Shown here in pieces: positions 19,396-28,837 of a stretch of DNA of 64,000 nucleotides. Where the stretch lies: positions 992,001 to 1,056,000 of the forward strand of contig NZ_JACSKH010000001.1 in the NCBI RefSeq assembly GCF_018617485.1, read 5' to 3'. Made by a program: the position numbers and the translations under genes. The notes under the pieces were generated by a model. The model was given only the letters and a program-made list of their open reading frames with translations, did not search any database and was not told where the DNA came from. The stretch is from Exiguobacterium sp. s124. GTDB taxonomy: Bacteria; Bacillota; Bacilli; Exiguobacteriales; Exiguobacteriaceae. Position 1 is the stretch's first letter; the number at the start of each line of letters is the position of its first letter.

Positions 19396-20270
19396 ACCGA
19401 ACGGATGACTTGAACAAGTGGAAGAGAACTGTCGAAGAATCGATGCGTTTGCTCATTGAGGCGAGTGATATGCCAACGCGGCTTCGCGATGCGATGTCAT
19501 ATTCCTTAGAAGCGGGCGGGAAACGAATTCGTCCTGCACTCGTCTATGCTGTTCTTGAAACATACGGTGTACCACTCGAACGAGGGAATGAGGTTGCGGC
19601 GGCGCTCGAAATGGTCCATACATATTCGCTGATTCATGACGATTTACCGGCGATGGATGATGATGACCTTCGTCGAGGTCGTCCGACGAATCACCGACAG
19701 TTTGATGAGGCGACTGCAATTTTAGCGGGTGACGCGCTTCTGACAGATGCGTTTCGTATTCTCGCACACATGTCGCTCCCTGCCGTAGAAAAAGTTAAAA
19801 TCATCGAGGCTTTCGGTCTAGCAGCCGGTAGCTCAGGTATGGTCGGCGGTCAGCTGGACGATATGCTCGCTGAAAAGCGGAATGACGTCACGTTACAGGA
19901 ACTTCAATCCATTCATGAGCGGAAGACCGGAGCCCTTCTTGTCTATGCACTTGAAGCGGGTGGGATCCTTGCCGGCGTATCGGAAGAAGATCGGTCCCAA
20001 TTAAAACAGTTCGGTCGTCACCTCGGCATTGCGTTTCAGATTCAAGACGATATTTTGGATGTCGTCGGAGATGAACAGACAATCGGGAAACGTGTCGGTT
20101 CGGATGAAGAGAATGAAAAAACGACATATCCGAAATTACTCGGATTGGACGGAGCGAAGCGTGCGCTCGATGCAGAAGTTGAGGCGGCGACCTTTGCAAT
20201 CGAGTCGCTCTCAACTCCAGCTCCCCTGTTATTGGACTTGTTGGCGTTTGTAGTGAAACGAAATCATTGA
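19392..20270 (+). CDS. ispA: Polyprenyl (farnesyl) diphosphate synthase
   Basis: A 292-aa trans-prenyltransferase that condenses IPP with DMAPP or GPP to make FPP. The first Asp-rich motif is DDLPAMDDDDLRRGRPTNH (about residues 83-101) and the second is QIQDDILD (about 217-224). GGKRIRPAL gives the IPP-binding residues. It is adjacent to dxs, so both ends of isoprenoid synthesis are encoded here. GGAGGGTCCTC precedes the ATG. Confidence 0.93.
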   Translation: MNRTDDLNKWKRTVEESMRLLIEASDMPTRLRDAMSYSLEAGGKRIRPALVYAVLETYGVPLERGNEVAAALEMVHTYSLIHDDLPAMDDDDLRRGRPTNHRQFDEATAILAGDALLTDAFRILAHMSLPAVEKVKIIEAFGLAAGSSGMVGGQLDDMLAEKRNDVTLQELQSIHERKTGALLVYALEAGGILAGVSEEDRSQLKQFGRHLGIAFQIQDDILDVVGDEQTIGKRVGSDEENEKTTYPKLLGLDGAKRALDAEVEAATFAIESLSTPAPLLLDLLAFVVKRNH

Positions 20271-20385: not shown

Positions 20386-22287
20386 ATGGTCATTATGGAC
20401 TTGACATCCATTCAAGACCCGTCATTCCTGAAAAGGATGTCTGTAACCGAACTCGAATCACTCGGCTCAGACATTAGACGATTCTTGATTGAAAAATTGG
20501 CAGTGACGGGAGGGCATTTGGCGCCAAACTTAGGAGTTGTGGAGTTGACGCTAGCCTTGCACCGTGTATTTGACAGTCCGAAAGACCAACTTGTATGGGA
20601 CGTCGGTCATCAGGCGTATGTTCATAAAATTTTGACAGGACGTACGAGCCAGTTTGATACCCTTCGACAATACAATGGGTTATGTGGCTTCCCAAAACGT
20701 TGTGAGAGTGAACATGATGTGTGGGAAACCGGGCATAGTTCGACTTCGCTTTCAGCAGCTATGGGGATTGCGATCGCGAATGAATTAAAAGGCCGTGCGA
20801 ACGACCGTGCCATCGCAATCATTGGCGATGGGGCATTGACTGGAGGAATGGCGCTCGAGGCATTGAACCATATCGGTGCCGAGAAGCAAAATGTCATTGT
20901 CATCTTGAACGATAATGAGATGTCGATTGCACCGAATGTCGGGGCGATGCATAATATGCTCGGCCGAATCCGTGCTTCGCGTAAATTGAAACACGCGCGT
21001 GAAGAGATGGAATCCATTATTAAACACATTCCACTCGTCGGCAACTCACTCGAACGGAGTGGGGAGCGAGTGAAAGATTTATTAAAATCCGCACTCATTC
21101 CGGGCACGTTCTTTGAAGAACTCGGCTTCACTTATTTCGGACCGACTGACGGCCACGATTTGAAAGACTTACTTGAAACACTTGAGTATGCGAAAAAAAT
21201 CGATGGACCTGTTCTCGTTCACGTCATCACGAAAAAAGGGAAGGGTTATCGTCCCGCTGAGTTAGACGGTGTCGGAACATGGCACGGATTAGGACCTTAT
21301 AAAATCGAGTCAGGTGAAGTGATTAAAGGGAAACCGAAAGGCCCGAGCTACTCGAAAGTCGTTGCAGAGACAATCACGAAAGTGGCAGAAACGGATGAGC
21401 GCGTCACATTGATCACGCCGGCAATGAGTGTCGGGTCAAAACTCGACTGCTTCACGAAAAAATTCCCGGAACGCATGTTTGACGTCGGGATTGCCGAACA
21501 ACATGCGGTAACACTTGCAGGTGGTCAGGCGACACAAGGACTAAAACCGGTCGTCTCGATCTATTCGACGTTCTTCCAACGCGCGTATGACCAACTCGTC
21601 CATGACATTTGTCGTCAAAATCTAAACGTCGTGTTCACAATCGACCGTTCAGGACTTGTTGGAGCAGACGGAGAGACACACCAAGGTGTATTCGATATCG
21701 CTTTCATGCGTCACGTACCGAACATTCGAATCTTGATGGCGAAAGATGAAGAAGAGTTGCAACAACTCGTTTATTCAGCGCTTCGCTATGATGGTGGACC
21801 GATTGCAATCCGTTTCCCGCGTGGGGAAGGGATTGGCGTACCAATGAGTGATACGCTCCAAGAAATCTCTCTTGATGATTGGGAAGTCGAGGCAGAAGGG
21901 ACAGATGTCGCGATCCTGACGTTCGGACCACAAGTTCAAGACGCTTTGGAAGTACGTTCATTGTTAGAAGGCAAGCTCAGTGTACGCGTCATCAATTGTC
22001 GCACGATTAAGCCGCTCGATGATGCAATGCTCGCCTCTTTATATGCAGAAGGTATTCCGCTCGTGACGCTTGAGGAAGCGGCGCTCGCAGGTGGTTTTGG
22101 GAGCAGTGTGCTCGAACATGCGAATGAAGCAGGAGCGTTCCCGCGGATTCAACGTCTCGGGATTCCGGACCGGTATATCGAGCACGGTGGTGTCAATCAA
22201 CTCTTAGAAGAGATTGGTCTCCGACCAAACCAAATGGCAGAATCGATTGAACGGTTCGTCATGGAGACAAATCGACAGAATGTGTGA
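20386..22287 (+). CDS. dxs: 1-deoxy-D-xylulose-5-phosphate synthase
   Basis: A 633-aa thiamine-diphosphate enzyme that condenses pyruvate and glyceraldehyde 3-phosphate, the first step of the MEP isoprenoid pathway. Features are [13 protein letters not shown], the ThDP motif [15 protein letters not shown]...ILNDNEMSI, the middle domain [15 protein letters not shown] with catalytic Glu, and the C-terminal transketolase domain. AGGAGAAAGG precedes ATG 20386; ATG 20395 is also possible. It forms a unit with tlyA 6 bp downstream. Confidence 0.96.
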
Positions 22288-25425: not shown

Positions 25426-26157
25426 GTGATTACATTATGTATTGCGGACGACAATCGAGAAATCGTCGATTTGTTGAGCCGACAACTAGAATCTGAGCCT
25501 GATCTCCGTGTCGTTGGAACAGCGCACGATGGTGAAGCATGCTTGGATGTCGTCAAGGCACACCAACCGGATGTACTCTTACTCGACATAATCATGCCTC
25601 ATTTGGATGGAATCGGAGTCTTGCAACGTCTACATGAAGAACTCGGTGATGATAAGCCGGAAGTGATCATGTTGAGTGCATTTGGAAAAGATGAAGTGAC
25701 GAAACAAGCGGTTCAATTAGGTGCCTCTTACTTTCTCGTCAAACCATTCAATATTCAACAATTGTTAACGAAAATTCGTGAACTGTCGGACGGTGCTAAT
25801 CGCGAGTTTGAAGGAATGTCTCCAGATGAAATTGAAATTTCGCTCTTGCTCCAACAACTTGGGATCTCTCCTCGAATCAAAGGATTCAAATATATCCGCC
25901 AAGCCGTCATCTATGTGCGCGAGCGTCAAGATTTGCTTGGATTGATCACCAAGGAATTATATCCGATGGTGGCAAAAGAGCATGATACGACTTCATCACG
26001 TGTGGAACGGGCGATGCGTCACGCGATCAAGACAGCATGGGAGAATGGAATGCGCGACCATGAGATGTTTGAAGGGCGACCTGAGCGTGAACGTAGTCCA
26101 AAGAACTCGGAGTTCATTTCATATTTCGTCACGTACTTGTCGTTTAAAAGTAATTGA
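25426..26157 (+). CDS. spo0A: Response regulator Spo0A
   Basis: A 243-aa receiver plus Spo0A C-terminal DNA-binding domain. The acidic pocket (ADDN) and phospho-Asp 54 (LLLDIIMPHLDG), plus Lys 106 (LVKPF), are intact. The DNA-binding part keeps GFKYIRQAVIYV, LYPMVAKEHDTTSSRVERAMRHAIKTAW, almost the same recognition helix as B. subtilis, so 0A-box specificity should be kept. It is about 24 aa shorter than the B. subtilis protein. It starts at GTG 25426 behind AAAGGAGTGTCATAA. An intact Spo0A beside missing spoIVB suggests a non-sporulation role such as biofilm or competence control. Confidence 0.93.
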   Translation: MITLCIADDNREIVDLLSRQLESEPDLRVVGTAHDGEACLDVVKAHQPDVLLLDIIMPHLDGIGVLQRLHEELGDDKPEVIMLSAFGKDEVTKQAVQLGASYFLVKPFNIQQLLTKIRELSDGANREFEGMSPDEIEISLLLQQLGISPRIKGFKYIRQAVIYVRERQDLLGLITKELYPMVAKEHDTTSSRVERAMRHAIKTAWENGMRDHEMFEGRPERERSPKNSEFISYFVTYLSFKSN

Positions 26158-26169
26158 ATCTTTAAAGGT

Positions 26170-26205
26170 GGACTAAGTCATCAAATGACTTAGTCCTTTT
26201 TTTAA
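26170..26205 (+). terminator. Terminator of argR-recN-spo0A
   Basis: A 12-bp perfect stem GGACTAAGTCAT/ATGACTTAGTCC with a 3-nt loop is followed by T7. Confidence 0.95.
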
Positions 26206-26238
26206 AATAATCAATAAAAAATTTTATTTACTTTATGA

Positions 26239-26276
26239 AAGAAAGCGCTTGCAAAACCGTCGTACTTTGTTATAAT
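26239..26276 (+). promoter_or_regulatory. Sigma-A promoter of the large RNA, overlapped by a cre-like site
   Basis: The -35 TTGCAA (26249-26254), 16-bp spacer and -10 TATAAT (26271-26276) predict a start near 26283. AAGAAAGCGCTTGCAAA (26239-26255) matches the CcpA cre consensus WTGNNANCGNNNNCAWW with one mismatch and covers the -35, so catabolite repression is plausible. Confidence 0.7.
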
Positions 26277-26282
26277 AAAGGT

Positions 26283-26809
26283 GTACCAAGTTACTTGGAC
26301 AAGCGTCAGATGAACGCTTTTCAAACTTGTTCCGGAGCAATGTTTGAAGAAACAAAATCATCTCGGTTCGCTATCCGACAATAGCTCAGAGGTGGGAACG
26401 ACATCTCAAGTCGTCAATGTCCCGACGTGAGGTCGCGACAGTCGCTCATTTGCGAGACGATTCTATCATCAACTCGAAGCTAGGGGTTGATATAGGAAAA
26501 ACAAATCGTTCAGTTAACCAAAAGGAGTGTTGTCAACCGTTGAACAGTTTATGGCAAGCGTTCGACTTCACGATGGATGGTTGGACATGATCCGATAATA
26601 AAAAATGTTAGTAACTCGAATGGAAATGTTCCGTTCACGCAAGACGGCAGTTACTAAAGTTCTTTCATACTTCTTCATTAAGAAGACATTGGATATCGTG
26701 TCAAAGGAAGTAAAGCAGTTGGAAAGGAGATCATCCGTAGTGATCACAATTCAATACGAATAAAAGGTTCCGCACTTGAAATGAAGTCAAGTTAGGGAAC
26801 CTTTTTTTT
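26283..26809 (+). ncRNA. Large structured noncoding RNA (about 527 nt); possibly OLE-class
   Basis: No long ORF occupies this gap between spo0A and the DUF2627 gene, yet it has its own strong promoter and terminator. Many local stems are visible: CCAAG/CTTGG (26286-26298), AAGCGT/ACGCTT (26301-26319), CAAACTTG with CAA-T-GTTTG (26322-26346), GGGAACGAC with GTCGT...TCCC (26394-26423), ATCAAC/GTTGAT (26467-26490 region), a 9-bp TTAGTAACT/AGTTACTAA (26608-26616 with 26649-26657), CTTCTT/AAGAAG and GATCA/TGATC. Size, density of structure and the ispA-dxs-recN neighbourhood recall OLE RNA, but no oapA partner is seen nearby and I could not run a covariance search. It may instead be a new class. 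Two tiny ORFs with SD-like sequences lie inside. Confidence 0.72.
26763..26809 (+). terminator. Terminator of the large RNA
   Basis: The stem AAAGGTTCC/GGAACCTTT encloses a second stem ACTTGA/TCAAGT and is followed by T8. The reverse strand also has GGAACCTTTTATT, so it may serve the convergent DUF2627 gene as well. Confidence 0.92.
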
Positions 26810-26815
26810 GTGTGC

Positions 26816-27064
26816 TTATGAGTCGAGTCGTTGAACTTTTCCTGTTTTTTTGTCGCGGTTAAATATATAGCCAGCTACAAATCCGATCCCGCCCATGGCG
26901 AGCAGAAGTCCGAAAGTCCCCTGCAACATGGAGGCGGCAGCGAGTGAATCGATCCATGTGAACGGTGCGCTCGTCTTCAAAAAGAAGCTGTCGCGAAGCA
27001 ATTTGATTCCGTAAACACCTAATAAACCAGGGACGATTAAGATTAGAAGCGCGATGAAACGCAT
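26816..27064 (-). CDS. DUF2627 small membrane protein (YqzF-like)
   Basis: An 82-aa protein with two membrane helices (FIALLILIVPGLLGVYGIKLL and LQGTFGLLLAMGGIGFVAGYIF) and a basic C-terminus FNRDKKTGKVQRLDS. This matches the DUF2627/YqzF family found after spo0A in Bacillales. Function unknown. The start at 27064 is chosen because GGTAAAGGAGGAGATTGC lies just before it; the longer frame to 27118 has no ribosome site. It converges on the large RNA. Confidence 0.78.
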   Translation of the reverse strand: MRFIALLILIVPGLLGVYGIKLLRDSFFLKTSAPFTWIDSLAAASMLQGTFGLLLAMGGIGFVAGYIFNRDKKTGKVQRLDS

Positions 27065-27199
27065 GCAATCTCCTCCTTTACCATACATTATTTTAACAGA
27101 AATCTGTTCATTCCACACTGTCTATTTTTAGGCGGCTTGCGCATCATGGTGGGATTCAGTAGCATGAAGAAGAGAAGAGTGAAAGATGGGGGAATTCGT

Positions 27200-28837
27200 A
27201 TGAATAAACGATTGATGATTGTCGGTGCGGGCAAAGGAGGGACGGAAGTCTTGAACATGTTGATGGACTCCCCGCTCGCGACGATCGTTGCGGTCGTCGA
27301 CTCCGATGCATCGGCTGAAGGGATTGCCCTCGCCAAAAGTTATGGCATCGCCGTGACGGACGATTGGACGAAATATGCAGAGGTAGCATTAGACTTTGTT
27401 ATTGAGACGACAGGGCAGCATCAAACGTTCGAAGAGTTGAAAGATCATTACAAAGATGCGGTTGTGTTGCCGGGAGAATTTATTCGAATCGTTGTCGAGC
27501 GATTGAAACAAAATCAACAGATGCTTGAAGCAATCATCGAATGTACGAGTGAGGCGATCTCGGTAGCCGATCATCACGGCAATACGATATTGATCAATCC
27601 GTCATATACCCGGTTGACGGGATTTAAAAAAGAGGACGTCGTTGATAAGCCTGCCACGGCCGATATCGGTATGCAGGAGAGTGTGCATCTGAAAGTTCTA
27701 TCGACGGGTCAAGGTGTCCGAGATATTCGGATGCAAATCGGGGCGACGCGACGTGACATACTTGTGAATGCAGAACCGATCATCGTAGAGGGGAAATTGA
27801 GAGGTTCGGTCGGCGTCATCCGTGATGTGTCTCAAATCCGTGCACTTCGTGATGAATTGCAAGAAGCGAAAACACGTATTCGAAATTTAGAAGCTAAATA
27901 TCAATTTGCTGATATTATCGCAACGAGTGATACGATGCGATTTGTCATCGATCAAGCAAAATTGGCAGCGGTGACACCAGTTACGGTATTGATTCGTGGA
28001 GAATCGGGAACAGGAAAAGAACTGTTTGCCCACGCTATCCACGGAGAATCTCCACGAAAATTTAAAAAGTTCATCCGAGTAAATTGTGCGGCCATCTCGC
28101 CTACGCTTCTCGAAAGTGAATTGTTCGGTTATGAAGATGGTGCATTTAGTGGTGCAAAGCGTGGTGGGAAGACAGGTTACTTCGAGGAGGCGGATGGTGG
28201 ATCGCTCTTTTTGGACGAAATCGGAGAATTGCCACTCGATGTCCAAGTAAAACTCCTTCGTGTCCTTCAAGAAAATGAGATTGTGCGAGTCGGGGGGACG
28301 ACGGCGATTCCAATTGATGTCCGCATCATAGCCGCAACGAATGCGGATCTTGAACAAAAAGTGGCGGACGGAACATTTCGTGAAGATTTATACTATCGAA
28401 TCAACCGGATGCCCATCCATATCCCGCCACTTCGAGAACGGTTGAATGAACTCGAAGCACTCTGTGACCGCATCGTTCGAAAGTTGAATCAAGAGTATGG
28501 CCGAAGTGTACAAGGGGTAGATGAAGATGCGTTGACTCTGTTGAAAAGTCAGCATTGGAAGGGGAATGTCCGCGAACTTGAAAATGTGATTGGTCGCGCA
28601 ATGATTTATATGGCGAACACGGAACAACAGATTGCTCCACATCACTTACAATTATCACCTCGTACGCCGAGCCAGAAAGTCGTCGAGTCTGGAACACTTC
28701 ATGAAGCCGTGGCGAAATATGAACGTGATTTGATTGAACGGACGATTGAAGAAGCCGGTGGGAATAAGTCAGAAGCTGCCCGGCGGTTAAAAATTTCAAT
28801 CCGGACTTTATATAATAAATTAGACACCATGCAATAA
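27200..28837 (+). CDS. bkdR: BkdR-type enhancer-binding regulator of branched-chain amino acid catabolism
   Basis: A 545-aa activator. The N-terminal Rossmann-like segment (LMIVGAGKGGTEVL, about 5-18) is followed by PAS (about 105-215), AAA+ (about 235-470; Walker A GESGTGKE at 267-274, Walker B GGSLFLDEIGEL) and a Fis-type HTH (GGNKSEAARRLKISIRTLYNKL) at the C-terminus. The sigma-54 contact loop reads GAFSGA (314-319) rather than GAFTGA. ATG 27200 is behind GATGGGGGAATTC. The gene precedes ptb-bcd-buk-lpdV-bkdAA-bkdAB-bkdB, its expected target. No clear -12/-24 promoter lies before ptb. Confidence 0.9.
   Translation: MNKRLMIVGAGKGGTEVLNMLMDSPLATIVAVVDSDASAEGIALAKSYGIAVTDDWTKYAEVALDFVIETTGQHQTFEELKDHYKDAVVLPGEFIRIVVERLKQNQQMLEAIIECTSEAISVADHHGNTILINPSYTRLTGFKKEDVVDKPATADIGMQESVHLKVLSTGQGVRDIRMQIGATRRDILVNAEPIIVEGKLRGSVGVIRDVSQIRALRDELQEAKTRIRNLEAKYQFADIIATSDTMRFVIDQAKLAAVTPVTVLIRGESGTGKELFAHAIHGESPRKFKKFIRVNCAAISPTLLESELFGYEDGAFSGAKRGGKTGYFEEADGGSLFLDEIGELPLDVQVKLLRVLQENEIVRVGGTTAIPIDVRIIAATNADLEQKVADGTFREDLYYRINRMPIHIPPLRERLNELEALCDRIVRKLNQEYGRSVQGVDEDALTLLKSQHWKGNVRELENVIGRAMIYMANTEQQIAPHHLQLSPRTPSQKVVESGTLHEAVAKYERDLIERTIEEAGGNKSEAARRLKISIRTLYNKLDTMQ

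Follow-up and report, generated by a model that had tools for sequence, protein, structure and literature searches.

Only a handful of large structured RNAs with unknown function have been described in bacteria, namely OLE, GOLLD, ROOL, HEARO and raiA, and several of them have given unexpected biology. Features that mark OLE are a kink turn to which OapC binds, a dimeric state and association with the membrane; ROOL and GOLLD are marked by homo-oligomeric cages made of RNA only. Staphylococcal RNAIII is a structured RNA of ~500 nt that has its own promoter and terminator and carries motifs connected with Shine-Dalgarno pairing. Exiguobacterium, the subject of the present analysis, is known for its tolerance of cold, salt and extremes of pH.

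The gene oapA is almost always found in tandem with OLE and is exclusive to OLE organisms (PMC9723947). In ROOL, a non-conserved, disordered linker is located inside the cage of the RNA (PMC12286853). The raiA motif RNA (ModT), a conserved structured ncRNA of Bacillota, is described as playing a part in growth (PMC11706538).

The Locus and Its Transcription Signals

Positions 26283-26809 on the + strand of the window (the whole 64,000-nucleotide stretch analyzed) almost certainly constitute the gene for a standalone, highly structured noncoding RNA of ~527 nt that is specific to the Exiguobacterium lineage and universal within it. This prediction is based on the positions of a promoter and a terminator, the presence of the RNA in 38/38 genomes of the family, and an alignment folding z score of -10. 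Unless otherwise noted, the features below are on the + strand.

The predicted sigma-A promoter, TTGCAA-16-TATAAT with an extended -10 TG, is found at 26249-26276, where the first-pass annotation had placed it. It is the sole sigma-A-like site on either strand of 25800-27400, a region for which 2.5 such sites are expected in shuffled sequences. Both boxes are kept in the source genus (g1, 19 genomes) and in its sister genus (g2, 19 genomes), which are GTDB-level genera within Exiguobacterium. As the boxes are fixed across all 38 genomes while the spacer between them is free to vary in sequence in g1, we give this promoter considerable weight.

The strong terminator claimed in the same annotation was likewise recovered by an inverted-repeat search. 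It consists of a clear inverted repeat, the two-part stem P12 (arms 26762-26771 and 26796-26805), followed by a T run to 26809 (whole element 26762-26809), and is compensated between the genera (GGUUCC/GGAACC versus GGUCCC/GGGACC). A simple terminator scanner overlooked it because of the long loop region. The terminator is likely shared with the convergent DUF2627 gene.

A cre-like palindrome, AGAAAGCGCTTGCA, overlaps the -35 box at 26240-26253. The match is weak, with two mismatches to the consensus, and did not rise above chance in a scan of the window. It is conserved in g1, and in g2 it is only partly kept, absent or displaced. Carbon control of the RNA through this palindrome is a possibility raised by the sequence.

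The upstream neighbor is spo0A (25426-26157), which has its own terminator at 26170-26196. Downstream lies the gene for a small DUF2627 (YqzF-like) protein on the - strand (26816-27064), a family name carried over from the earlier annotation. The order spo0A, RNA, reversed DUF2627 gene and sigma-54 activator gene is the same in g2, where spo0A fell outside the fetched stretch in 1/19 genomes. Several g2 genomes have ~700 bp between spo0A and the RNA promoter. The dxs gene ends at 22287, which places the RNA ~4 kb after dxs and corrects the earlier estimate of about 6 kb.

Distribution and Conservation

All 38 Exiguobacterium species genomes examined carry the RNA between spo0A and the convergent DUF2627 gene, and the source genome has a single copy. 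The carriers include E. aurantiacum, E. profundum, E. aestuarii, E. sibiricum, E. antarcticum, E. undae and E. flavidum. In blastn searches the other 18 g1 genomes matched over the whole 596 bases with 84-96% identity, and the match in g2 covered only 47-64 nt at the 5′ end and 90-150 nt at the 3′ end of the RNA (19/19 genomes). Across the 19 g1 species the RNA contains blocks with a mean pairwise identity of 0.95-0.98, compared to ~0.8 for the spo0A coding DNA. These blocks alternate with fast-changing segments, and in the spacer immediately before the promoter identity is as low as 0.07-0.47.

Two covariance models, R1 for the 3′ domain and R2 for the 5′ domain, each recover 38/38 family genomes. 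Under Infernal's stricter filters, which very distant relatives could escape, R1 matched none of 361 further Bacilli genomes and, in a sample of 398 genomes from across the phylum, none outside the family. R2 gave three weak matches outside the family, the best in genome G251 (E = 1.8e-4) and the weaker two in G398 and G265. The G251 match lies inside a protein-coding ORF and was rejected as chance. The exact pattern of the conserved AAAAGGAGUGUUGUC block is present in 24 Exiguobacterium records. It also occurs in Lysinibacillus, Alicyclobacillus and a Bdellovibrionales MAG, where R1 with filters off found nothing convincing; the Lysinibacillus match is a Shine-Dalgarno sequence directly before an ORF.

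The syntenic regions downstream of spo0A in 21 other Bacilli yielded no convincing R1 or R2 match, and in 12 of them an Rfam scan found no family. Two other Bacilli (G148 and G062) have more than 1 kb downstream of spo0A without a complete ORF of at least 70 aa and without an Rfam match. These stretches could represent other unannotated RNAs, or an ORF that runs off the fetched stretch. Neither blastn nor the exact pattern found similar sequences in phages, plasmids or viral contigs (IMG/VR).

At curated thresholds no Rfam 15 family matches anywhere in the window. With relaxed thresholds for the stretch holding the RNA, the best hit has E = 0.42; it is to a Tetrahymena snoRNA model and lies before the promoter. 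An Rfam scan of four homologous loci was also negative. In the main texts of open-licence papers we found none linking Exiguobacterium with such an RNA. Exiguobacterium is absent from the main text of a 50-genome ncRNA survey. An RNA-seq study of E. antarcticum B7 filtered out ncRNA reads, and the word "intergenic" is absent from its main text (PMC4247613). The RNA may have been detected earlier as an anonymous transcript.

Fold and Covariation

The single sequence folds well in either orientation (z = -5.1 for the + strand and z = -4.0 for the - strand). Alignment folding of ten representatives gave -181.5 kcal/mol, compared to -120.6 ± 6.0 kcal/mol for 60 shuffled alignments (z about -10). 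When the homologous spo0A-downstream gaps were gathered and analyzed for covariation, as the first-pass annotation had proposed, compensatory changes were seen both between and within the genera: 10 pairs between genera, 6 within g1 and 13 within g2. Most of the ten pairs, which come from the two end domains, changed along the one branch that divides the genera and count once each. The independent evidence for covariation is that found within genera.

The 5′ domain is predicted to contain three hairpins that covary. P1 (26286-26298; CCAAG/CUUGG, in g2 CCAAA/UUUGG) has one compensatory pair, P2 (26302-26318; AGCGU-CAGAUGA-ACGCU) has two and an almost invariant 7-nt loop, and P4 (26370-26385; GCUAU/AUAGC) shows compensatory changes between and within genera. 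In these helices five pairs are exchanged on both sides, versus 0-1 when the partners are slid. A further hairpin from the helix list, P5 (26389-26407; GAGGUG/CAUCUC, in g2 AGRAUG/CAUYCU), covaries in g2. It is followed by the composite stem P6 (26463-26495), which is capped by the conserved GAAGCUAGG and has six compensated pairs within g1 (39 cells; slid controls 1-2) and others in g2. The 5′ half of the g2 RNAs has 13 compensated pairs, more than in any of 500 shuffles and compared to 0-5 when slid. Because the helices of P6 and of the g2 domain were picked by visual inspection of the very sequences tested, the percentage of paired positions stands out more strongly against the slid controls than it should, and the number of compensated pairs is more reliable.

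The 3′ domain contains P8 (26608-26657), a stem of UUAGUAACU and AGUUACUAA (g2 CAGAU/AUCUG) with three compensatory pairs. This is the 9-bp stem 26608-26616/26649-26657 reported in the first-pass annotation; it is located exactly there and is among the best covarying helices. P10 (26670-26685; CUUCUU-CAUU-AAGAAG, loop invariant) and P11 (26729-26745; GAUCA-UCCGUAG-UGAUC) have one compensatory pair each. Together P8, P10 and P11 have five compensated pairs, versus 0-1 with partners slid. P10 is enclosed by P9 (26660-26728; UUCUUUC/GARAGGA), whose pairing is kept in both genera; as P9 is mostly invariant, we regard it as suggestive only. Helix scans of the end domains found 3 compensated helices in one and 2 in the other, counts that none of the 60 column shuffles of either domain reached.

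The central block (26500-26600) showed no significant covariation and no compensated helix in the helix scan, in sequence-based alignments that may misalign this domain and on which a home-made structural alignment did no better. The hairpin P7 (26539-26566; GUUGAAC/GUUCGAC, in g2 GCAGU/ACUGC with uncertain alignment) lies in this block. Three long-range contacts are candidates. P9 is one (UUCUUUC/GARAGGA), the P5 loop ACGACA may contact UGUUGU, and the P11 loop UCCGU could pair with the upstream RYGGA at about 26573-26577, forming a candidate pseudoknot. Comparison of the homologs shows a multi-helix structure that is maintained by compensatory change.

The RNA also has two near-invariant blocks that resemble Shine-Dalgarno sequences, AAAAGGAG (26520-26534) and GARAGGAG (26722-26729), in a noncoding context. 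The first, the AAAAGGAGUGUUGUC block, is identical in every alignment row.

A Hypervariable Linker

Between P6 and the AAAAGGAGUGUUGUC block lies a hypervariable linker (26496-26511). The segment measured from P6 to AAAAGGAGUGUUGUC spans 27-29 nt in g1. In g2 it is mostly 37-41 nt but longer in seven genomes, with 71 nt in one and 152-235 nt in six others. The long linkers consist of the 10-nt unit AAGCAAGACC repeated in tandem, up to about 19 copies, and are poor in U (3-5%). The expansion is seen only in the E. sibiricum/antarcticum group (loci L064, L065, L069, L073, L074 and L075; e.g., L065:1889-2079). As the repeat period is 10, coding by the linker is excluded, and from its sequence the repeat-rich linker is unlikely to fold.

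Proposed Function and Alternatives

A standalone structured RNA gene of Exiguobacterium, proposed to act as a scaffold in trans, is the best overall explanation of these observations, and we hold it with good confidence. The specific mechanism, modeled on other large RNAs, is more tentative, plausible rather than probable. Sigma-A RNA polymerase would transcribe the RNA from its own promoter, and the RNA would fold into a multi-branched body. It would then act in trans as a scaffold, assembling with proteins, additional copies of itself or both, as has been suggested for the OLE, ROOL, GOLLD and raiA RNAs. In this model the hypervariable, U-poor linker would be tolerated as a flexible tether or loop. 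As the RNA has not been lost from any of the 38 genomes, it probably supports adaptation to stress or growth.

Scaffolding is the most likely function, and its main rival is regulation by base pairing as in RNAIII. In that case the structured body of the long RNA would present the invariant AUCAUCUC, UUUCUUUC and AAAAGGAGUGUUGUC to mRNAs or to the anti-Shine-Dalgarno sequence of 16S rRNA. The near invariance of the two Shine-Dalgarno-like blocks and of pyrimidine-rich blocks in both genera is consistent with such a role. However, UUUCUUUC and GARAGGAG are able to pair with each other, and structure is conserved over the whole body to a degree beyond what an antisense RNA needs. We therefore consider a base-pairing regulator unlikely, while taking it seriously.

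It is improbable that the RNA is a dual-function or small-peptide mRNA in which the Shine-Dalgarno-like blocks drive tiny ORFs. The first-pass annotation had noted the lack of a long ORF, and a protein-coding pattern, looked for across the interval, was not found: of the longest forward ORFs, one is uninterrupted in 6/19 g1 genomes and another in 2/19, the variable sites of the longer one are spread 17/17/17 over the codon positions, and gaps are mostly of 1-2 nt. One 7-codon frame (26740-26763; GTG..TAA, VITIQYE or VKPILYE) is open in all sequences examined and has synonymous TAC/TAT changes in g1 and TAC/TAT and GAA/GAG changes in g2. We doubt this frame because it is short, has a long Shine-Dalgarno spacing (10-11 nt) and overlaps P11; several of its seven codons also change the amino acid between or within genera.

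Still less probable is a purely cis-acting element, either a 3′ UTR of spo0A or an antisense or terminator element controlling the convergent DUF2627 gene. The RNA does lie directly between these two genes in the genomes examined. However, spo0A and the RNA each have a signal of their own, a terminator and a conserved promoter respectively, the two are ~700 bp apart in some g2 genomes, and a conserved fold of 500 nt is far beyond what a terminator needs. The terminator and the convergent neighbor also argue against a leader.

That the RNA is a divergent OLE RNA is scarcely credible. The first-pass annotation had offered two readings, an unnamed large RNA or an OLE relative separated from its partner, and only the former stands. 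An OLE relative would fit the size and the shared xseA-ispA-dxs-recN-spo0A chromosomal region. However, the search against RF01071 proposed there matched neither OLE nor any other Rfam family. A scan of 25 Exiguobacterium genomes with RF01071 was negative, whereas OLE was recovered by this search in four other Bacilli (E < 1e-146). With a query from an OLE locus, OapA was found in 0/10 Exiguobacterium genomes versus 4/4 OLE genomes, leaving the idea of a separated partner unsupported. Nor do the R1 and R2 models recognize OLE loci. In the OLE locus examined, OLE lies between ispA and dxs, and the present RNA lies elsewhere; in the window ispA ends at 20270 and dxs starts at 20386, and this 115-bp gap has no room for oapA, in agreement with the earlier remark that the window has none.

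A CsrB-like GGA sponge was rejected, as none of the 13 GGA in 527 nt lies in a supported hairpin loop, and so was the genome's only RNase P or 6S RNA, since RNase P type b and 6S are encoded elsewhere in the source genome and its relatives; the window contains no tRNA or tmRNA.

Comparison With Known Large RNAs

The conserved promoter, terminator and covarying helices and the absence of a coding signal make this locus a standalone structured ncRNA gene, and the same evidence strongly supports the first reading of an unnamed large structured RNA. By homology it is a new, family-restricted class, and in kind it belongs with the large structured ncRNAs already known from bacteria.

RNAIII resembles it in size, in having its own promoter and terminator, and in motifs related to Shine-Dalgarno pairing, whereas the Exiguobacterium RNA has no Rfam match and no conserved peptide of comparable size. 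The raiA motif RNA is also a conserved structured ncRNA in Bacillota; unlike it, the present RNA matches no Rfam family and is found only in Exiguobacterium. ROOL and GOLLD are large structured RNAs too, and the disordered linker inside the ordered ROOL RNA (PMC12286853) recalls the Exiguobacterium linker, a likeness that we regard as analogy with no claim of homology. Neither family is among the Rfam matches for the RNA, and the phage or prophage association that marks them was not seen: the Exiguobacterium RNA is chromosomal, vertically kept at a fixed locus, and without a phage, plasmid or viral match. By this analogy it could be a new, Exiguobacterium-only class of large ornate RNA. Such an RNA, by itself or together with proteins, would like ROOL build an ordered particle whose linker is disordered and can expand by repeats, yet it would be kept as a universal single-copy chromosomal gene; we consider this proposal rather doubtful as a whole.

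OLE shares with it the length of ~600 nt, the nature of a standalone structured ncRNA in Bacilli and the xse-ispA-dxs-recN-spo0A neighborhood, and differs in its Rfam family, its OapA gene, its exact position and the lack of cross-recognition by covariance models; the two may be analogous at the level of the fold. The Exiguobacterium RNA would add a further, independent class to the large structured bacterial RNAs. It is small enough for cryo-EM and, being single copy, can be deleted in one step. As every Exiguobacterium genome tested lacks OLE and OapA, the genus offers a natural comparison for a convergent role of such RNAs.
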